Source: Sphingomonadales bacterium
GTDB lineage: Bacteria; Bacteroidota; Bacteroidia; UBA7662
Direction of reading: 5' to 3'
Assembly (NCBI GenBank): GCA_016872215.1
Contig: VHAX01000020.1
Location: forward strand, 1 to 42,020
Length of the DNA: 42,020 nucleotides
Below the pieces are notes generated by a model. That model was not told the origin of the DNA, searched no databases, and saw only the letters and a list, made by a program, of their open reading frames with translations. The position numbers and the translations under genes were made by a program. Position 1 is the first letter of the stretch. Each line of letters begins with the position of its first letter. Below, in pieces: positions 31,546-42,020 of the stretch.

Positions 31546-31690
31546 CTTGGTGCCAATAGTCTGGTTGCCCATTGCCTTGGTGCCAGAAGTATGGGAGCTC
31601 AATGCCAAAAGCCAAATTACACATTACCTAGGAGCCAGAAGCCTTGAGGCTCAATGCCAATGTGCAAGTAGCCTGGAGGCCAGACAATTG
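31546..31690. repeat. Imperfect 52-bp tandem repeat over the uvrA 3' end
   Basis: GCTCAATGCC occurs at 31597-31606 and 31649-31658, and GTGCCAGAAG / GAGCCAGAAG at 31580-31589 and 31632-31641, both offset 52 bases. Further shorter GGTGCCA and GGCCAG words flank them. The repeats cover the last codons of uvrA, its TAG stop (31628-31630) and the gap towards the next gene. Confidence 0.6.
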
Positions 31691-34537
31691 TTTACCGGTG
31701 TAGCTTTCAGGGCACTCCATTAGTTTCTCCGGGGTGCCATCGAACACTAAATGTCCACCGTCGAGGCCCCCTTCAGGCCCCAGGTCAATGACCCAATCCG
31801 CCGCACGTATTACATCCGGATTGTGTTCAATAATCCAAATCGAGTTACCCAATTTTTGCAGCGCCTTAAGGGCCTCCATCAGCTTACGCACGTCATGAAA
31901 GTGCAGACCGGTGGTGGGCTCATCGAAGATAAACAATGCGTTGCGTGCTTGTTGACCGTGGGTGAGATAGCTGGCCAGCTTCATGCGTTGCGCCTCACCA
32001 CCCGAAAGGGTACTGGACGATTGTCCGAGTGACATATACCCCAGCCCCACATCGGCCAGAGGCTTGAGTCGGGTGACTACCGAATTCTGGTCGTGGAAAA
32101 ACGACAAAGCGTCGTCCACCGTCATACAAAGAACGTCGTAGATCGTTTTCTCGCGGTAGCGCACCCCCAAAACGGCCGATCCGAAGCGCATACCGCCACA
32201 ATCTTCGCAGGGCAGGGTTAGGTCGGCTAGAAACTGCATGCTGATGGTTACCGTGCCTTCTCCCTGGCAAGTCTCACAGCGACCGCCGGGGACATTAAAC
32301 GAGAAATGGGTGGTCCCAAGGCCCATTGCCTGGCTGGCTGGCTGGGCTGCGAACAATTGACGAATGCCGTCGTAGGCTTTGGTGTAGGTGACCGGATTCG
32401 AACGGCTCGATTTGCCGATCGAGTCCTGGTGCACCAGTTCTATTAACTGCAGGCGCTGCACAGGACCCTCAATTCGGTCATGATCGCCCGCCTTTTCCGA
32501 CGACTCATTCCGCATACGCAGCATAGCCGGGTATGCGATTTGTTTGATTAAAGTTGATTTTCCCGATCCGCTAACTCCCGTAATCACAGTGATGCAGTGC
32601 AGCGGTAGGGTAACAGTCAGGTTTTTCAGGTTGTGAGCCCGTGCACCGTGCACTGTAATGCCGGTATGCCAGGCAGACCGGGTGGGCATAGCGTGTTCCG
32701 ATTCCAGGGCACGAAGTGCGGCACCGGTCGGACTATCAGCACAGGCCAGCAGGCCGGAGTAGTCGCCCTGGTAGATCAACTGCCCACCCCGACTACCTGC
32801 GGCGGGACCAATATCGATAAGGTGATCGGCCGCCCGGATAATGGTTTCATCGTGCTCCACCACCACCACGGTGTTTCCGGCATCTCGAAGGCGGCGCAAC
32901 ACCTCCACGAGGCGGGCGCTATCGCGTGCGTGTAGCCCAACACTGGGTTCGTCGAGTATATACAGGCTACCGGCAAGGGTACTCCCCAGCGAGGTAGCAA
33001 GGCGGATCCGCTGGTATTCGCCACCCGACAGGGTCTGCGTGGGGCGATGCAGAGTCAGGTAACTCAATCCCACCTCGCACAAAAGTCCCAGGCGGTTGGT
33101 GATCTCCTTGAGAAGTCGATCTGCAATCTGGCGTGTGGTGGGGGGAAGAGCAAGGTGGCTGAGGAAATGCAGTGCCTGGTCGACCGGCAGCAGGGTGAGG
33201 TCGGGGAGGTTCATGGAGACTTGCCCGTCGACCGTGGGCAGGTATACATAGCCTGCGTCTTTCCGGATTCGGCTGCCTTTGCACTCCGGGCAAATCGTGC
33301 GGCCCCGGTAGCGCGACAGCATCACCCGATACTGAATCTTGAAGGATTCCCGCTCGAGGTAGGCAAAAAACGCATGGAGGCCCTCAAACCAGCTGTTGCC
33401 CGTCCACAATAACTCTTTTTCATACTCGCTGAGCAGGTGGTATGGTCGGTGGATGGGGAAATCGAATTTGATTCCGTTCCGCACCAGGGGTTTGAGCCAT
33501 TCGCTCATTTTTTCGCCTTTCCAGGGGGCGATGCATCCATCGTAAACACTGAGGCTTTTGTCGGGTACCACCAGATCCGGGTCGATGTCGAGGATGGTGC
33601 CGAATCCCTCGCATCGGCGGCAGGCACCGTAGGGGTTGGAAAAGCTGAATAGGTTCACCGATGGCTCTTCGAAGACCTGTCCATCTGCTTCGAAACGATC
33701 GCTGTAGGTCAGCATCTGATCACCCCAATCGACCAGGCAGGAGCCATGCCCCTCGAAAAAAGCGGTTTGTACGGAGTCTGATAAGCGCGAGCGGAGGTCT
33801 TCATCGCTCCGATCGGTTGTTACCCGGTCCACCACCACCTCCACTACAAGGTCGGACGATGTTTCGATCGTGGACTGCCCCTTTTTCGCTCCGGAATGGG
33901 GTAATACAGCATTCAATCCGCCATGTTCCGAAAACCAGTCCTCGATTCGGAACAGTGCCCCGTCAATACGAACCCGTAAAAAGCCTTTCAGCAATAGTAC
34001 CTTGAATTCGTCGGACAGATTGCGGCGCTCATGGCGCACCAGCCGGCAACGGATCTCGCAGGTCAGCTCGTCGGGCCGGGCCAGAATTTCCCCCACCACC
34101 TGGTCGACAGTTTGCCTTTTCACAACCGCCCCACTTACGGGCGAATGGGTCTCCCCGATCCGGGCATACAAAAGTTTCAGATAATCATATATCTCTGTGG
34201 TTGTGCCCACAGTCGAACGGGGATTCCTCCCCCCTGTTTTTTGCTCAATGGCTACCGCCGGGGAAATTCCGTGGATGAAATCGACCTCCGGTTTCTTCAT
34301 GCGGTTGAAAAACTGACGCGCATAGCTCGAGAGGCTCTCCACATAGCGGCGTTGCCCCTCGGCATAAAGGGTATCGAATATGAGGGACGATTTGCCCGAG
34401 CCCGACAGGCCCGTCACAACCACCAAACGACCCCGCGGTATGGCCAAATCGATGCCTTTCAGGTTGTTCAAACGCGCATTTTTGATCAAAATGTGCGTGC
34501 GTGGACTACAATGCTCGATTGAATTGGACAATTCCAT
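31628..34537 (-). CDS. uvrA: Excinuclease ABC subunit UvrA
   Basis: UvrA is the damage-sensing ABC ATPase of nucleotide excision repair and loads UvrB on DNA. From ATG 34537 the protein has 969 residues. Seen: the first Walker A GLSGSGKSS (about 43-51), YVESLSSYARQFF, Cys pairs CRRC and CPEC, the first signature LSGGEYQRIRLATSLGS with Walker B LYILDEPSVGLH, the second Walker A GVSGSGKSTLI, the CETC...CEDC zinc module, and the second signature LSGGEAQRMKLAS with IFDEPTTGLHFHD. The tail after the normal end (SGLQATCTLALSLKASGS) is coded by a repeat and is not conserved. The frame continues upstream to 34633, but family alignment begins near 34537. Confidence 0.96.
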   Translation of the reverse strand: MELSNSIEHCSPRTHILIKNARLNNLKGIDLAIPRGRLVVVTGLSGSGKSSLIFDTLYAEGQRRYVESLSSYARQFFNRMKKPEVDFIHGISPAVAIEQKTGGRNPRSTVGTTTEIYDYLKLLYARIGETHSPVSGAVVKRQTVDQVVGEILARPDELTCEIRCRLVRHERRNLSDEFKVLLLKGFLRVRIDGALFRIEDWFSEHGGLNAVLPHSGAKKGQSTIETSSDLVVEVVVDRVTTDRSDEDLRSRLSDSVQTAFFEGHGSCLVDWGDQMLTYSDRFEADGQVFEEPSVNLFSFSNPYGACRRCEGFGTILDIDPDLVVPDKSLSVYDGCIAPWKGEKMSEWLKPLVRNGIKFDFPIHRPYHLLSEYEKELLWTGNSWFEGLHAFFAYLERESFKIQYRVMLSRYRGRTICPECKGSRIRKDAGYVYLPTVDGQVSMNLPDLTLLPVDQALHFLSHLALPPTTRQIADRLLKEITNRLGLLCEVGLSYLTLHRPTQTLSGGEYQRIRLATSLGSTLAGSLYILDEPSVGLHARDSARLVEVLRRLRDAGNTVVVVEHDETIIRAADHLIDIGPAAGSRGGQLIYQGDYSGLLACADSPTGAALRALESEHAMPTRSAWHTGITVHGARAHNLKNLTVTLPLHCITVITGVSGSGKSTLIKQIAYPAMLRMRNESSEKAGDHDRIEGPVQRLQLIELVHQDSIGKSSRSNPVTYTKAYDGIRQLFAAQPASQAMGLGTTHFSFNVPGGRCETCQGEGTVTISMQFLADLTLPCEDCGGMRFGSAVLGVRYREKTIYDVLCMTVDDALSFFHDQNSVVTRLKPLADVGLGYMSLGQSSSTLSGGEAQRMKLASYLTHGQQARNALFIFDEPTTGLHFHDVRKLMEALKALQKLGNSIWIIEHNPDVIRAADWVIDLGPEGGLDGGHLVFDGTPEKLMECPESYTGKQLSGLQATCTLALSLKASGS

Positions 34538-34667
34538 TTGATTTGGGGCGCAAAGTTCGTTACAAATAAAAATTCTTGTTGCGGTTGACTGAGATTTGCC
34601 GATTATTTCCGATTCATTCTCCTGGCTTTTCATTTTTAGCCACTACGGGGCGTTTCCTGCTCTTATT

Positions 34668-35105
34668 TCAGGTATACCAGAGGGAGAAGATGACCAGAAA
34701 GTAGGGGCCGCGGAGATGGTAGTCGTGCATCCACTGCAAGAAGGGCCAGTCCAGTCCCGACCAGGCGGTCAGGAATGCTATGCGAAATACATTCACGGCA
34801 TGCACAATTAGCAAGGCACTGGGCACAAACCACAGTATGTGACACATATTTCCGGGGTAGAGGATTAACAGGAAAGCACTTTGCAACAATTGTTTGAATC
34901 CGGAGCAACCCTCAATCACTGTGAGTCCACGCCCGTTGGCAAAATAGATTGTGCGATTCGAGAGTTCAGTCGGTTCTAGTCCCGCCCACCTGCACAAAAG
35001 GTAATTGACCTCACTGAGGTGTTCGGCGAGGCCCACCCGGATCGACTGCACCCAAGGCAGGGCCAGAAATGTATCCTCTATTGCATGATAGCTGAAGTGA
35101 AACAT
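34668..35105 (-). CDS. Exosortase/archaeosortase-family membrane protein (short type)
   Basis: This 145-residue membrane protein has about four hydrophobic segments. It carries the exosortase catalytic set: Cys67 in VIEGCSGF, Arg108 in AVNVFRIAFLT and a His in WMHDYH (127 or 130). VIEGC(S/N)G and (N)xxRI are the hallmark blocks. Exosortases are transpeptidases that process proteins with C-terminal PEP-CTERM-like sorting signals and are often tied to polysaccharide export; here no exopolysaccharide cluster or obvious target is adjacent. The size fits the short exosortases of Bacteroidota, which work in addition to T9SS. ATG 35105 is used; a TTG at 35111 would add two residues. A small frame precedes it by 18 bases. 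Confidence 0.78.
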   Translation of the reverse strand: MFHFSYHAIEDTFLALPWVQSIRVGLAEHLSEVNYLLCRWAGLEPTELSNRTIYFANGRGLTVIEGCSGFKQLLQSAFLLILYPGNMCHILWFVPSALLIVHAVNVFRIAFLTAWSGLDWPFLQWMHDYHLRGPYFLVIFSLWYT

Positions 35106-35123
35106 GAGCAAAAGTCCGGCGAA

Positions 35124-36522: not shown

Positions 36523-36933
36523 ATGGCCCTGCGTGAAGAGAACATTCGGCTGATTTTTGGCTTGAAAATGCGGCAGCTGCGCATCGATGCGGGTATGTCG
36601 CTCTCCGATGCCAACGCGTCTTCGGTCTTGCAACCTCTCGAAAGCAGCGTAGCCCTCGGCCTCAAGATGTGTCCGCAACTCAAGAAGGTAGTCCGATTCT
36701 GGAACGACGCAGCGATTCCTGTGCAGGTGGCGGGACAAACATGCGAGCGGTGCGGACTCAGCGATTGCCCCGACCGCGTGCCACCACCCGAGCAACTGGA
36801 ACTAAACCATCAACTCGAAGCCATGAAACAGGTATTGTTGTGCTGGCCCGCCTCCGATGAACCATCAAACAGTAGCGGAAGGCCTCGTTCAGGAAATCGA
36901 AATAAAAAGCTTAATAGTAGCCAAATGATATGA
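36523..36933 (+). pseudogene. XRE-family regulator with an internal deletion
   Basis: From ATG 36523 the first 31 residues (REENIRLIFGLKMRQLRIDA, then GMSLSDAN) are the start of an XRE helix-turn-helix of a long Bacteroidota regulator family. Directly afterwards, without the rest of the HTH and a few hundred residues, comes what I recognise as the C-terminal part of the same family: LGLKMCPQLKKVVRFWND followed by the Cys cluster CERCGLSDCPDRV. The frame is intact across the join, so a short product of about 136 residues could still be made, but it cannot bind DNA in the usual way. The stop overlaps the start of the next gene (ATGA), so it may act only as a leader for DUF502 expression. Confidence 0.65.
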
Positions 36934-37505
36934 AAAACAGACATTTAAAGCGGATTGGAATGCGCCTGTTCAAGTCATTCCTCAACGGGCTGCTGCTTGT
37001 GGCCCCAATTGCCGCCACGCTATATGTGGTTGCTCGTTTGTTCAAATTGTTCGATGGCTGGCTGAATCTTGGAATTCCCGGCCTTGGCCTGCTGGCAACT
37101 GTGGCGGGCATCACCCTGATTGGATTTCTGGGCTCCAACCTGCTCGTTGGCCCCCTGCTCGACCTCATCGAACGCATCCTCACCCGCGCCCCCTTCATCA
37201 AATTAATCTATACCTCCATACGCGACCTGATGGAGGCATTTGTGGGCGACAAGCGGAAATTCAACCAGCCAATCCTCGTACATTTCATGGACGGAACAGC
37301 CAAACCGGGCTTCCTCACCCAACCCGATCTCGCCCTGTTGGGCAAGCCCGGAATGGTGGCGGTTTATCTTCCCCATTCCTACAATTTTTCAGGAAATCTG
37401 TTTTTTGTGGATGCCAAACGGGTCGAGAAGGTTGACGTAGATTCTACCGCTTACATGAAGTTCATTGTATCTGGGGGGGTCACTGACCTAATCGAGAAGC
37501 CATGA
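36930..37505 (+). CDS. DUF502-family membrane protein
   Basis: This 191-residue protein has a basic N-terminus and two membrane segments (about 15-40 and 50-75), followed by a soluble domain. GLLLVAPIAATLYVV, GFLGSNLLVGPLLDLIERIL, PFIKLIYTSIRDLMEAF and PGMVAVYLPHSYNFSGNLFF are the conserved blocks of DUF502, a widespread inner-membrane family of unknown function in bacteria and plants. The start overlaps the stop of the broken regulator by four bases, and its own stop overlaps the acyltransferase start by four bases, so the three form one transcription unit. Confidence 0.9.
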   Translation: MKNRHLKRIGMRLFKSFLNGLLLVAPIAATLYVVARLFKLFDGWLNLGIPGLGLLATVAGITLIGFLGSNLLVGPLLDLIERILTRAPFIKLIYTSIRDLMEAFVGDKRKFNQPILVHFMDGTAKPGFLTQPDLALLGKPGMVAVYLPHSYNFSGNLFFVDAKRVEKVDVDSTAYMKFIVSGGVTDLIEKP

Positions 37506-38059
37506 AAAGAGCCATATCCAAGTTCATTTTTCACTGGATAATGGGCTGGCGAATTGTGGGTCGCTTTCCGGTTGAGGTTCCTCAGGCAATCATTGTGGTG
37601 GGCCCACACACCAGCAACTGGGATTTTTTAATTGGGGTGCTGTCGCGCAACGTGCTCGGGCAGGACATCAGCTTTATTGGCAAGGATAGCTTGTTTAAGG
37701 GGCCCTTTGGATGGCTGTTCCGGTGGTTGGGTGGCTACCCGGTCGACCGAAGCCAGAGTCAGGGTATAGTAGAAGTGGTGGTAAAGCTGTTTCGAACGCA
37801 TCCACGATTTTTTTTGTCGCTCTCGCCCGAGGGCACGCGCAAAAAGGCAGAGCGACTGCGTAGCGGGTTCTACCACATGGCGGTAGGAGCCGGAGTGCCG
37901 ATTATTATGGTGGGGATGGACTTCAAGCGGAAGGAGTTGCGGTTCGAACCGCCTTTGCATCCGACAGGCCATATTGAGGCCGATATGCGCATTATCCAGC
38001 AGTTTTTTTCTACTGTAACTGGAAAAATCCCTAGGTATGGTGTGGATGCTCCGAAATAA
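37502..38059 (+). CDS. 1-acyl-sn-glycerol-3-phosphate acyltransferase-like protein (PlsC family)
   Basis: This 185-residue protein has the glycerophosphate acyltransferase motif HTSNWD (36-41), motif III SPEGTRKKAERL (108-119) with the family's EGTR, and VPIIMVGMD at the motif IV position. A short hydrophobic N-terminus may hold it at the inner membrane. It would transfer an acyl chain to a lysophospholipid or related lipid, but short members of the family (185 against about 240 residues in PlsC) often have unknown acceptors. It starts within the DUF502 stop (ATGA), so it is translationally coupled. Confidence 0.85.
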   Translation: MKRAISKFIFHWIMGWRIVGRFPVEVPQAIIVVGPHTSNWDFLIGVLSRNVLGQDISFIGKDSLFKGPFGWLFRWLGGYPVDRSQSQGIVEVVVKLFRTHPRFFLSLSPEGTRKKAERLRSGFYHMAVGAGVPIIMVGMDFKRKELRFEPPLHPTGHIEADMRIIQQFFSTVTGKIPRYGVDAPK

Positions 38060-38099: not shown

Positions 38100-39290
38100 C
38101 TACCGGAAAAAAAACGCGGAACTGCCCCCCACCCAGTCGAGCCCCTCATTGTAGCGCACACCGATGAGCTTGCCGCGACTAAACCTAGCGAGGTTGGTGA
38201 TGATTTCAGGATTTCGGCTTTTTGAATCGATGAAGATCATCATCCGGATTTCGACTTTCACACCTCCTGAGCTACTGTTCACCACGGGCTCGTAGGTTAC
38301 CTTGCGCTGCAGTAAGAAATGTTTGCGATGTTCGATTTGTTCTAGTATTTCATGGGTAACATCCACCTGAACCCCACTTCCGGCGAAGGAGTATAGGGGT
38401 TTCAACACCCAATCGCCCAGATAATCGGGCACTTGAGTGATTTGGCTGAGGAGATGGGACTCGGGCACAAACGGGCTTTGTAGGAAGGGGAGGCTGAATT
38501 TGCTCAGGCGGAAGAACCAGTTGGGGTGACTCACCCACTCAGCTTGGATCGGGTCGAGCAGATTCCAATCGCGGATGAATTCGGGCCGTTGTTCGACTTC
38601 ATCGAAAATAATGCGGTTGTAGACCCGGTATATAGGCACCGATTTACCATCCTTTTCATAGTAGAGCCCGTGTCCGGAGCGGCGAATGGCACTCAGGCAG
38701 AGTGTTTTTACACCGAACAAGCGCTCCGTGGCATAGAAATCAGCTCTGGTTTTCTGATGGCCCGGGTCGATCTCGAGCAGCACAACATTTTCGGGTGAAT
38801 GGGTTCCGCAGATGACCCCTTTCAGTCGACTCAAATATGTGTCGTGGCTATAGTCCGATAAATACGGAGTGCCAGAATCATTAAGCCCCCAGATTTTTTG
38901 GTAGGACTGAGCCAGGATTGACTGGTAGGCATACAGCGATGGGAATCCCTGCAGTTCGATGAGCATCGGGTGTAGGTGCCCGCCCTCCGTTCGGGTAATC
39001 CCAAAATCGAGCACGAGTAGTTCGGGGAATTCGGTGCATCCGGGCACTTCCTGATGGGGGGGCACGGCCTTATGGCTTTCCTTCAGGTATTCAGGGGTGA
39101 GGAGCTGACTACAAATATCTTTGCAGGCCTGCTTGAGCTTGTGGGTGAGGTCTGCCGGCACGAAAACAGGACTCTCTGCTACCCGAAAATCGGGTACTTC
39201 GCCGATCCGTATCTTTAATTCGTCTAGCAGTCGCGTGTAGTGCCCGGGCGTGTAGAATTGGTTGATGTGCCCGCGAATTTCAGGGATCAT
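38100..39290 (-). CDS. ATP-grasp-like ligase of the amidoligase cluster
   Basis: This 396-residue cytoplasmic protein has an ATP-grasp look: VLKPLYSFAGSGV (295-307) is the Lys plus Gly-rich loop that covers ATP, followed by FLLQRKVTYEPVV, the hinge-like strand, and EIRMMIFID with metal-ligand type residues. An upstream acidic strand, PMLIELQGFPSLYAY (109-123), suggests a rearranged order like that of circularly permuted ATP-grasp proteins. Such enzymes join a carboxylate to an amine through an acyl phosphate. I do not recognise a named member. Its start overlaps the stop of a small basic frame (ATGA), and the amidotransferase and GCS2 ligase genes lie upstream on the same strand, so it probably shares their pathway. 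Confidence 0.6.
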   Translation of the reverse strand: MIPEIRGHINQFYTPGHYTRLLDELKIRIGEVPDFRVAESPVFVPADLTHKLKQACKDICSQLLTPEYLKESHKAVPPHQEVPGCTEFPELLVLDFGITRTEGGHLHPMLIELQGFPSLYAYQSILAQSYQKIWGLNDSGTPYLSDYSHDTYLSRLKGVICGTHSPENVVLLEIDPGHQKTRADFYATERLFGVKTLCLSAIRRSGHGLYYEKDGKSVPIYRVYNRIIFDEVEQRPEFIRDWNLLDPIQAEWVSHPNWFFRLSKFSLPFLQSPFVPESHLLSQITQVPDYLGDWVLKPLYSFAGSGVQVDVTHEILEQIEHRKHFLLQRKVTYEPVVNSSSGGVKVEIRMMIFIDSKSRNPEIITNLARFSRGKLIGVRYNEGLDWVGGSSAFFFR

Positions 39291-39487
39291 GAATGTTGGG
39301 TCTTTAGGTTATCGGTCTTCGATGCGCGGACTTTGTTGTTTTCCTGGTGTTTGGTGTGATGGGTCTGTAGTTTCCCTGTTTTTCGGTGAGTCTCACCAGT
39401 TGTTTTCCAGATTTTCGGTCTGCGAGGTCTGTGGTCTTCATGTTTTCGGTTTCTCAGGTCGGTTGGTTGCCTGATCTTTTGTCGCAA
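39287..39487 (-). CDS. Possible small basic peptide in the amidoligase cluster
   Basis: A frame of 66 codons fills the gap between the amidotransferase stop (39499) and the ATP-grasp start (39290). It begins with TTG 39487, and its TGA overlaps the ATP-grasp ATG. The product is extremely basic and rich in Lys, Arg, His, Thr, Gln and Asn. The minus strand here is poor in T, which keeps several frames open: an overlapping frame, ATG 39441 to TAA 39304, codes for 45 residues starting MKTTDLADRKSGKQ. Either may be real, or the gap may be non-coding low-complexity DNA. Confidence 0.3.
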   Translation of the reverse strand: MRQKIRQPTDLRNRKHEDHRPRRPKIWKTTGETHRKTGKLQTHHTKHQENNKVRASKTDNLKTQHS

Positions 39488-39498
39488 GTTTTTCGTAG

Positions 39499-40323
39499 TC
39501 AGGCCTCCTGAGCCTGCATGAGTCCCAATTCAAGAAATCGGGGGAGGATACCACGAAAGGTCTGCTCGAGTTTATCAGGATCGTTCAATTTCTGCAGCAT
39601 ATCCTGATAGGTGGCCTCTCCGTGTTGGCGGATAATGTTGGCGATTCGTTCGGGTTGATCCATATAATGCATCATGCCGGCCGGATCTGCCTCCGAATGA
39701 AACTGTGTTCCGAAAAAATGGGTGCCAAAACGGACGGCCATAAGGGCGCGCTCGTATTGGATGTGGTCACGCATGCGTTCTATGGCCAGTATTCTGGCAC
39801 CGAAGCGTTCGAATGCAGCGAAGTCGGGCTGCACCACTTGCCAATCGCGCATATCTACCGCCCATATGGGGTCGGGGAGTCCCACAAGGAGGGGGTCATG
39901 CACTCCATACTGGGTTTTGTGAACGTTAAATATGCCAAAGGATGGACTCCTCCTGAGGGATGCAGTGCCGAGCCCGAAGTGCTGGCAGAGCATCTGAAAA
40001 CTGTGGCAGATGAAAAAAACGGGTTTCGGTCGATTCAATGGGTTTTGGTTGTGTGTCCACAGCCGATCGAGCAGTTCACGGTATCCGAGTTCCCAGCCGT
40101 GACCAGCGAGTAGGGGTGAGCCAGGGCCACCGGTCGATACATACAAATCGTATTCGATCCCAGGCAGTTCGCGGCGGCTTCTGACTTCAAACTCGTCCCA
40201 TTCGATTTGATCCCCGAATTTCTTGAGCATATTCCGGAGGCTGTCCATACCCAGGTTGGGGGCACGGTCGTACATATCGAGTATGGCAACCCGAGCGGGA
40301 CGTACTTCTTCTTCGGTCAACAT
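39499..40323 (-). CDS. Class I glutamine amidotransferase-like protein
   Basis: This 274-residue protein has the GATase I core. VAILDMYDRAPN opens the fold, VSTGGPGSP (62-70) forms the oxyanion region, and the nucleophile is Cys106 in FFICHSFQMLC, with His209 and Glu211 in GTQFHSEADP completing the triad. The elbow reads CHSFQ instead of the usual CxGxQ, a variation seen in some GMP-synthase-like amidotransferases of this phylum. It would release ammonia from glutamine for a partner ligase. The C-terminal 60 residues are helical. It lies 42 bases downstream of the GCS2 ligase gene, which together with the ATP-grasp protein supplies the likely partners. Confidence 0.85.
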   Translation of the reverse strand: MLTEEEVRPARVAILDMYDRAPNLGMDSLRNMLKKFGDQIEWDEFEVRSRRELPGIEYDLYVSTGGPGSPLLAGHGWELGYRELLDRLWTHNQNPLNRPKPVFFICHSFQMLCQHFGLGTASLRRSPSFGIFNVHKTQYGVHDPLLVGLPDPIWAVDMRDWQVVQPDFAAFERFGARILAIERMRDHIQYERALMAVRFGTHFFGTQFHSEADPAGMMHYMDQPERIANIIRQHGEATYQDMLQKLNDPDKLEQTFRGILPRFLELGLMQAQEA

Positions 40324-40365
40324 GCGAAACGCGCCGGGCGCAACCTATAATACACGTTAATTTGG

Positions 40366-41457
40366 TTATAGTCCCGCTACGGTTTGCTCCACGTAATAGT
40401 CAACTACCGCCTTCAGGTCTTTGGTTTGCGTGAAAATATCTACCTGACGGTCGGCGCCGGTGCCTTGTTCGAGCATATTGTCTATGTAGTCCATGTAGGA
40501 TTGAGTCCCCATTTCGTCTACAGCGGTCGACACAAATTCGAGCAGTTCGTGAATCAGACTGCGGGTGTTCACCTCTGCTTCTTTGCCGAAGTCGATGAGC
40601 TTTCCATCGATTCCGTATCGACTCGCCCTCCATTTGTTTTCATTGAGGAGTTCGCGCTTGTAGATCATAAAATTCAGATTATTCTGTCGTAGCTGATACA
40701 ATTTCACCACAAGCGCCTGAATAAGTGCGGCAATGGCCACGGTTTCATCCGCTCTCATGGGCACGTCGCAGATTCTGAATTCGATGGTGTCAAAGAACGG
40801 ATGCACACGTATATCCCACCAAATTTTCTTGGCATTGTCGATGCAGTTCGTTTTCACGAGCATTTTGACGTAGTTCTCATACTCGGCATAGCTCCCGAAG
40901 TGATCGGGAATGCCGGTTCGGGGAAATTTATCAAATACTTTCGACCGATACGATTTAAATCCAGTATTTCGGCCTTCCCAAAAGGGCGAATTGGCGGATA
41001 GTGCGTAGATATGGGGCAGGAAATACCGAACAGAGTTAGCTATGTGCACCGCTATGTCTTTATCGGGTACGCCCACATGAACATGAAGACCGAAGATTAA
41101 ATTGGAGCGAGCGGTGTCCTGCAATTCGTCCACAATTTCGCGATACCGCGGATTTTCGGTGATCAATTGGGTCTGCCAGAGAGAAAAGGGATGCGTGCCC
41201 GCTGCCCCGATTACGAATCCTATGCTGCGCGCTACATCCGACACCACCTTCCTCAAATTTTTGATGTCTTGTTCTGCTTCTTGAATGTTTTTGCACACTT
41301 TCGTGCCAACCTCAACCACAGCCTCATGCATTTCGGCTTTGGCCTGATCGGGTAGAATTAGGTTCACCCCGGTAACAATCTGTTGTTCATGCGATACCAG
41401 TTCCCTGCTTTTTGGATTTATTACTTGGTATTCTTCTTCTATCCCAATGCTAAACAT
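40366..41457 (-). CDS. Carboxylate-amine ligase, GCS2 family (YbdK-like)
   Basis: This 363-residue member of the glutamate-cysteine ligase type 2 family has IGIEEEY (4-10) with the metal-binding glutamates, GTHPF (87-91), NLIFGLHVHVGVPD (119-132) with the conserved His pair, and FRICDVPMRADET. These enzymes form a peptide-like bond between a carboxylate and an amine using ATP; YbdK itself has only weak gamma-glutamylcysteine activity and no firm role. A GATase I and an ATP-grasp protein follow, and the basic repeat protein precedes it by 57 bases, all on one strand. The substrate is unknown. Confidence 0.92.
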   Translation of the reverse strand: MFSIGIEEEYQVINPKSRELVSHEQQIVTGVNLILPDQAKAEMHEAVVEVGTKVCKNIQEAEQDIKNLRKVVSDVARSIGFVIGAAGTHPFSLWQTQLITENPRYREIVDELQDTARSNLIFGLHVHVGVPDKDIAVHIANSVRYFLPHIYALSANSPFWEGRNTGFKSYRSKVFDKFPRTGIPDHFGSYAEYENYVKMLVKTNCIDNAKKIWWDIRVHPFFDTIEFRICDVPMRADETVAIAALIQALVVKLYQLRQNNLNFMIYKRELLNENKWRASRYGIDGKLIDFGKEAEVNTRSLIHELLEFVSTAVDEMGTQSYMDYIDNMLEQGTGADRQVDIFTQTKDLKAVVDYYVEQTVAGL

Positions 41458-41514: not shown

Positions 41515-42020
41515 TTAATTATCAGGGTTTTTCATCTTTTCAGAGAGATTCACTGCATCTATACCAAATTCTGAAATGGGAGGTCGCACAATCCGGGTTC
41601 TTTTACTGCCACCTGCTTTTTTAATTGGGGTTTTACTCCCCTTTTTCGCAGTGGATTTTTGACGCGTTAAATTCAATTTTTTAACCCTTCTCGGTTTGCG
41701 CTGCAATACCATTGCTGGTGCTTCTGATGGTTTAGTGGTTACGGCCATATTTTTCGCTCGTTTTCCCGCTTTTCCTTTCGATGCTTTACCCGTGGCTCTT
41801 GGCGGCCTTTCCTTTTTTTTGGCAGCTGTTTTGGCCGAAATATTTTCGGTTTTAGCGCTTTCTTTCTTTTTTCTACCGCGTTTTTTCGGTTCCGTCGTTC
41901 CGATTTTTACCTCTGCCCCGGCGCTTTCTTTCTTTTTTCTACCGCGTTTTTTCGGTTCTGTCGTTCCGATTTTTACCTCTGCCCCGGCGCTTTCTTTCTT
42001 TTTTCTACCGCGTTTTTTCG
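41515..42020 (-). CDS. Lysine/arginine-rich repeat protein with AT-hook-like motifs (cut by window end)
   Basis: The last 167 residues of a frame that enters from beyond 42020 are present. It carries a 22-residue repeat of the form RKKKESAGAEVKIGTTEP followed by KKRG, two complete copies plus a partial one, and then a Lys/Ala-rich stretch (AAKKKERPPRATGKASKGKA). PKKRGRKKK resembles an AT hook, and the overall make-up is like histone H1-type or nucleoid proteins. The C-terminus (RPPISEFGIDAVNLSEKMKN) is not basic and may be a separate short motif. It ends 57 bases before the GCS2 start on the same strand. DNA binding is the simplest guess; being the substrate of the ligases next door is speculation. 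Confidence 0.65.
   Translation of the reverse strand, partial: KKRGRKKKESAGAEVKIGTTEPKKRGRKKKESAGAEVKIGTTEPKKRGRKKKESAKTENISAKTAAKKKERPPRATGKASKGKAGKRAKNMAVTTKPSEAPAMVLQRKPRRVKKLNLTRQKSTAKKGSKTPIKKAGGSKRTRIVRPPISEFGIDAVNLSEKMKNPDN
41881..42020 (-). repeat. 66-bp in-frame tandem repeat
   Basis: Units at 41881-41946 and 41947-42012 differ at one base (TTCCGTCG against TTCTGTCG) and a third starts at 42013. The 66-bp period is 22 codons, so copies stay in frame. The near-identity points to recent expansion. The array runs past the window end, so the copy number is unknown. Confidence 0.92.

Follow-up and report, generated by a model that had tools for sequence, protein, structure and literature searches.

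A conserved Bacteroidota gene cluster of three ligase folds and a cysteine amidase, a candidate route to a peptide- or amide-type small molecule

Systems of the ergothioneine EgtA/EgtC and butirosin BtrJ/BtrG type attach a γ-glutamyl group that is later removed. Stand-alone GATase-like thiol peptidases encoded beside carboxylate-amine ligases have been described (PMC2588565), the plant γ-glutamyl peptidase GGP1 cleaves a glutathione conjugate (PMC3042935), and among the permuted ATP-grasp proteins a peptide-spermidine ligase activity has been reported for YgiC and YjfC (Pederick et al. 2023, as cited in PMC12568646). Here we describe a cluster of ligase and hydrolase genes at one end of a 42,020-nucleotide stretch, hereafter the window, which is one whole contig (VHAX01000020.1, assembly GCA_016872215.1) of a genome named Sphingomonadales bacterium and placed by GTDB in the Bacteroidota (Bacteroidia; UBA7662). 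By sequence and fold, the cluster encodes three ATP-dependent carboxylate-amine ligase folds, namely a GCS2/glutamine-synthetase fold (GCS2), a LysX/RimK/Ddl-type ATP-grasp (C4) and a GSS/GspS-type permuted ATP-grasp (X), together with a cysteine amidase that has a class-I GATase fold (GATase) and α/β-hydrolase esterases. On balance we favor the view that it is a conserved Bacteroidota operon whose product is a small molecule of peptide or amide type, built non-ribosomally by stepwise ligation and hydrolytic trimming. It is of the same broad kind as the described pairs of GATase-like peptidase and carboxylate-amine ligase, from which it differs in its ligase subfamily and in the addition of two unrelated ATP-grasps (PMC2588565).

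Gene order and conservation across the Bacteroidota

A sequence-only reading of the window had proposed a three-enzyme amide-forming cluster on one strand with short gaps. The three open reading frames (ORFs) indeed lie together on the minus strand, and the gap between GCS2 and GATase is short (42 bp), whereas that between GATase and X, at 208 bp, is not very short. The count of three proved too low: the cluster has at least four to five genes, among them C4, which is a further ATP-grasp unrelated to X, and one or two esterase genes, and in the window it extends upstream past 41457 into the fourth ligase gene, which is cut by the end of the contig. The features are as follows.

38100–39290, minus strand: X, 396 amino acids, predicted GSS/GspS-like circularly permuted ATP-grasp ligase.
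39499–40323, minus strand: GATase (GAT), 274 amino acids, class-I GATase fold without a synthetase domain, predicted γ-glutamyl/peptide amide hydrolase.
40366–41457, minus strand: GCS2 (GCS), 363 amino acids, YbdK-type GCS2 carboxylate-amine ligase.
41515–42018, minus strand: basic C-terminal tail of C4 (33% K+R); the homologous C-terminal part of C4 in the same-genus locus L033 has the same position and reading frame.
41855–42020, minus strand: exact 66-bp tandem repeat (2.5 copies, 99%) encoding PKKRGRKKKESAGAEVKIGTTE, at which the assembly breaks.

Among 297 genomes surveyed in the phylum, 92 are X-positive; from these we analyzed 80 neighborhoods of up to 20 kb, to which 23 loci of a second collection were added. 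The order of the cluster is esterase, C4, GCS2, GATase, X, with C4 preceded in many loci by one or two α/β hydrolases (PF00756). C4, GCS2, GATase and X stand in this order on one strand in 24 of the 80 genomes, from seven families, while in 15 genomes, again from seven families, C4 and GCS2 are linked to X without GATase; median gaps in the linked loci are 27.5, 43.5 and 30 bp. Counting strong matches only, the 297 genomes hold X in 92 cases, C4 in 108, GCS2 in 93 and GATase in 70. X shares 89 genomes with C4 and 87 with GCS2, C4 and GCS2 share 90, and 69 of the 70 genomes with GATase also encode C4. The co-occurrence of X, C4 and GCS2 holds even in families in which the genes are scattered over the genome. 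For the three genes of the sequence-only reading (X, GATase and GCS2), which many families have kept as a group, the linkage is far beyond chance, and it is conserved across genera as well as families of Bacteroidota.

Some further neighbors were seen in the survey. The genes upstream of unlinked X (SSF transporter, aminotransferase, NamZ, CNNM, cyclase, tRNA synthetase) had no common theme and were dropped, and a histidine ammonia-lyase gene that adjoins C4 at two loci in a single family is probably there by chance. In 10 loci, almost all of which belong to two families, a PF07969 amidohydrolase gene lies directly before X, with a median gap of −1 bp; in one locus of a third family (L067, 11640–13391) it lies between GCS2 and GATase. 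The loci concerned are L067, L109, L111, L112, L116–L118, L120, L122, L123 and L155. This amidohydrolase may be a further hydrolase that the pathway can exchange, an observation that is suggestive and stands apart from the main evidence.

The three ligases and the contig break

GCS2 is, to judge from its sequence, clearly a carboxylate-amine ligase of the GCS2 family, as first proposed, and of the YbdK type: it matches PF04107 (E = 2.9e-67) and, in NCBIfam, PRK13515 (526.7 bits, the cut-off being 371), and its residues 2–333 match YbdK in PDB (1r8g, E = 4.9e-51). The GhExE active-site signature, as defined in PMC2588565, is present as G5-x-E7-x-E9 and is invariant in 18 relatives. GCS2 thus resembles YbdK in this signature and in its catalytic residues, and differs from it in belonging to the PRK13515 subgroup and in sitting inside an operon. 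For GCS2 relatives including YbdK, γ-glutamyl-cysteine ligase activity is on record (Lehmann et al. 2004, as cited in PMC2588565). An EgtA-type assignment found no support, with 15.7 bits for TIGR03444 against a cut-off of 370.8 (EgtB and EgtD were not searched for).

Searched as a single sequence, X gave no useful match in Pfam (none at E ≤ 0.1), NCBIfam or PDB, and matches to NAD kinase and methyl-CoM reductase were dismissed as chance. A profile built from 39 relatives matched one protein in PDB, Escherichia coli YgiC (E = 0.036), with X VLKPLFSFAGKGV aligned to YgiC VVKPIFSREGANV; in these relatives E112, K297, G304, G306, E347 and R349 are invariant. The AlphaFold2 model of X, built from 22 sequences, has a predicted local distance difference test (pLDDT) score of 89.7 and a predicted template modeling (pTM) score of 0.90, and all 20 of its matches in PDB at E ≤ 0.001 are to GSS, GspS, YgiC or YjfC, the next match having E = 0.09. 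By this model, X is a permuted ATP-grasp of the GSS/GspS/YgiC superfamily, which bears out the fold suggested earlier for 38100–39290. X is predicted to act like these enzymes though it lies outside their families, since it falls below their sequence models both in Pfam and in the match to YgiC.

With GSS, GspS and YgiC-YjfC, X has in common the fold, a KPx(F/Y)SxxGxGV ATP-binding segment and an acidic ExQ/ExN motif before that segment; unlike them, it has no Pfam match and has C4 and GATase as neighbors, and its identity to them is 10 to 15%. Its metal-site motif is ELQ where GSS and GspS have EIN, the comparison being one of sequence motifs rather than of superposed structures. That C4 and X are recent paralogues was rejected on a profile comparison (E = 0.15 over 21 columns).

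The place of X in the operon can be taken by a different protein. GATase and C4 occur without X in 15 genomes, and most of the nine such loci that were fetched have the order hydrolase, C4, n2, GATase, esterase, in which n2 is a CP_ATPgrasp_2 protein of 450 to 460 amino acids (PF14403, E = 1.8e-9) between C4 and GATase. From this position and the Pfam match, the slot of X is held in these loci by another permuted ATP-grasp. A profile comparison of X with the replacing protein (A5) gave a weak match (E = 0.0048, probability 7%), which nevertheless spans the full length and keeps the catalytic motifs in register.

Two observations concern the surroundings of X. One family has X either fused to a sodium:solute symporter-like ORF (L062, 8037–10637, an 867-amino-acid fusion ORF) or directly behind a separate symporter-like ORF (PF00474; L094, 10687–12069), which could be a hint at transport of a substrate or product. 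In the window, a DUF502 gene followed by an acyltransferase-like gene (PF01553) occupies 36930–38059 on the plus strand, convergent with X; this pair adjoins X only in the close relatives L031–L035.

C4 is best described from L033, in which it is an ATP-grasp protein of 461 amino acids. The nearest folds to a model of its core (pLDDT 76.7) are ArgX/LysX, D-Ala-D-Ala ligase (Ddl) and RimK, with E about 1e-12, and C4 is predicted from this model to be a LysX/RimK/Ddl-like ATP-grasp ligase. It resembles these enzymes in fold and in weak LysX and RimK profile matches; unlike them, it scores far under the family cut-offs (LysX TIGR02144, 31.8 against 275.6 bits; rimK_fam TIGR00768, 26.7 against 143.4 bits) and in several lineages it bears a basic tail of AT-hook-like or H1-like type. 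In the window's family the tail consists of AT-hook-like units, KRRGRPAKPKAE, whose number reaches about a dozen in L162, and in other lineages of histone-H1-like KKA/KKP repeats, the tail of L075 matching HC2 (PF07382, E = 2.6e-4). The loci concerned are that of the window (41515–42018), L033, L034, L035 and L157–L164; many relatives of C4 have no tail.

Beyond the contig break, C4 continues on contig C24 of the same genome, which opens with the identical 66-bp repeat; next come the N-terminal part of C4 and a divergent PF00756 esterase gene, so that C24 and the window together give the order found in L033. This remainder (C24:3–649, minus strand; locus L136 of genome G000) carries an internal deletion: about 68 N-terminal residues are kept, about 215 core residues are absent, and the sequence is out of frame from about residue 283. 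The junction has 7 to 8 bp of microhomology. C4 is intact in two genomes of the same genus. The deletion may be real, or it may be an artefact of assembly or strain; correspondingly, the pathway may be incomplete in the window's genome, or the assembly may be wrong. Such a break, next to the intact gene in two close relatives, is what would be expected if the operon were decaying in this organism, with C4 broken and the other genes relics. However, the genes for X, GATase and GCS2 are whole and every invariant residue is kept, and the microhomology at the junction and the draft status of the genome leave room for an artefact; we regard decay as a serious but rather doubtful explanation.

GATase and the gene that replaces it

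GATase matches PF00117 with E = 7.8e-5, just above the gathering score. Cys106, which lies in the CHSFQ nucleophile elbow already recognized in the sequence-only reading, is invariant in a 25-sequence alignment together with His209 and Glu211, and because of this conservation the protein is very probably catalytic. Its profile matches 3l7n, MetA and the GATase domain of GMP synthase. It resembles the described GATase-like peptidases and GGP1, the latter of which we take to belong to the same fold class, in its class-I GATase fold, its Cys-His-Glu residues, the lack of a synthetase domain and its position adjoining a GCS2-superfamily ligase, and it differs from them in a conserved C-terminal extension of its own. 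In the case described in 2008, the ligase is of another family (Amidoligase_2-like) and the two ATP-grasps are lacking (PMC2588565).

The sequence-only reading had assigned the supply of ammonia to GATase; the replacements of the gene point elsewhere. In five genomes from four families, the interval between GCS2 and X encodes a 339-amino-acid M29-peptidase-like protein (PF02073, E = 2.1e-17), and nowhere in those five genomes was a GATase of this family found. This replacement of GATase in its slot by a probable amide hydrolase suggests that GATase itself hydrolyses an amide rather than supplying ammonia. As a true ammonia donor, GATase would hydrolyse glutamine and pass ammonia to GCS2 or X for the formation of a primary carboxamide. 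Its membership of PF00117, its intact triad and its match to the GATase of GMP synthase are all consistent with such a role. However, it is fused to no synthetase domain, the operon of one family-level group (f17) lacks it, the gene being encoded elsewhere in the genome, and its absence from the genomes with the M29-like gene fits hydrolysis; ammonia donation is, in our judgment, unlikely.

A proposed pathway and its meaning

A peptide-like metabolite, as first put forward, remains the best reading of the cluster, and our analysis agrees that no member has a named substrate. In the operon that we favor, GCS2 would activate a carboxylate, probably the γ-carboxyl of glutamate as γ-glutamyl phosphate, and join it to an amine to give the first amide. 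C4 and X would each form one more amide bond, in both cases via an acyl-phosphate; like GSS, GspS and YgiC, X may be the enzyme that finishes the chain, using an amino acid or an amine. GATase would then cleave a γ-glutamyl or peptide amide, with no donation of ammonia, glutamate being perhaps a removable handle or the pool being trimmed, and the esterase may take an acyl ester off the substrate or product. A γ-glutamyl-adding ligase and a separate removing hydrolase are features that such a pathway would share with EgtA/EgtC and BtrJ/BtrG; EgtC and BtrG have other folds, and the cluster of the window lacks sulfoxide synthase and aminoglycoside genes.

Several points weigh against this proposal. 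X is unlinked to C4, GCS2 and GATase in 32 of the 80 surveyed loci. The Fisher P values for co-occurrence (1e-21 to 1e-60) are nominal and ignore shared ancestry. In the window's own genome, C4 is without most of its core. Finally, the M29 fold also includes non-peptidases such as the NicX dioxygenase, and the M29-like gene could have another role.

The same ligases could instead serve protein modification, with C4 or X attaching an amine or amino acids at the C terminus or a side chain of a protein and GATase removing them. Among the enzymes closest in fold to C4 are RimK-like ones as well as ArgX/LysX, whose target is the carrier protein LysW, and the long basic tails of C4 could dock nucleic acid or another polyanion. 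However, no small conserved target ORF was seen in the operon across the loci, the Ddl and LysX fold matches of C4 are about equally good, and a small molecule better suits the esterases and GCS2; we hold modification of a protein to be improbable. The lineage's glutathione or glutathionylspermidine pathway, in which GCS2 would make γ-Glu-Cys and X or C4 would add Gly or spermidine, accords with the activity recorded for GCS2 relatives and with the GSS/GspS fold of X, but it is the least probable explanation, given that X has no match to Pfam GSS or GspS at E ≤ 0.1, that X differs from them at the metal-site motif as compared above, that two extra ligase/hydrolase genes are left unexplained and that BshC, an enzyme of bacillithiol synthesis, is encoded in the genome, which hence has another thiol route. 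A search of the window's genome found no GshB-type enzyme (PF02955), and since BshC is present and GshB absent, bacillithiol probably covers the thiol role, and the pathway need not be that of glutathione.

More tentatively than for the operon as such, we suggest that the product of the favored pathway could be an undescribed, widespread Bacteroidota peptide-type cofactor or signal with a function like that of glutathione or a peptidyl-polyamine. GCS2 and two unrelated ATP-grasps would make it and an exchangeable amide hydrolase would process it, one branch having swapped the permuted ATP-grasp for one of another permuted family and several lineages having gained DNA-binding-like basic tails on C4.

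Elsewhere in the window, a short and perhaps incomplete exosortase EpsH-like ORF (PF09721, E = 2.3e-9) lies at 34668–35111 on the minus strand, flanked by a UvrA-like gene (31628–34633) and a small secreted-looking ORF.

The literature searched contained no description of this gene combination; its coverage did not include Iyer et al. 2009, reportedly the main survey of such ligases, so an earlier prediction is possible. The cluster is not described in the papers on CDC123/R2K (PMC4431377), class-I aminoacyl-tRNA synthetase-like proteins (PMC2922099), sigma-54 (PMC12316311) and RimK (PMC10092738).

X is present in about a third of the phylum as sampled (92 of 297 genomes), and almost all of these genomes also have C4 and GCS2. 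A pathway so widely kept, in which two of the four enzymes fall under any family cut-off, points to an unnamed conserved metabolite or modification. YbdK-type ligases are common and have long been without a physiological substrate, and the product of this operon would show what they do in at least one lineage.

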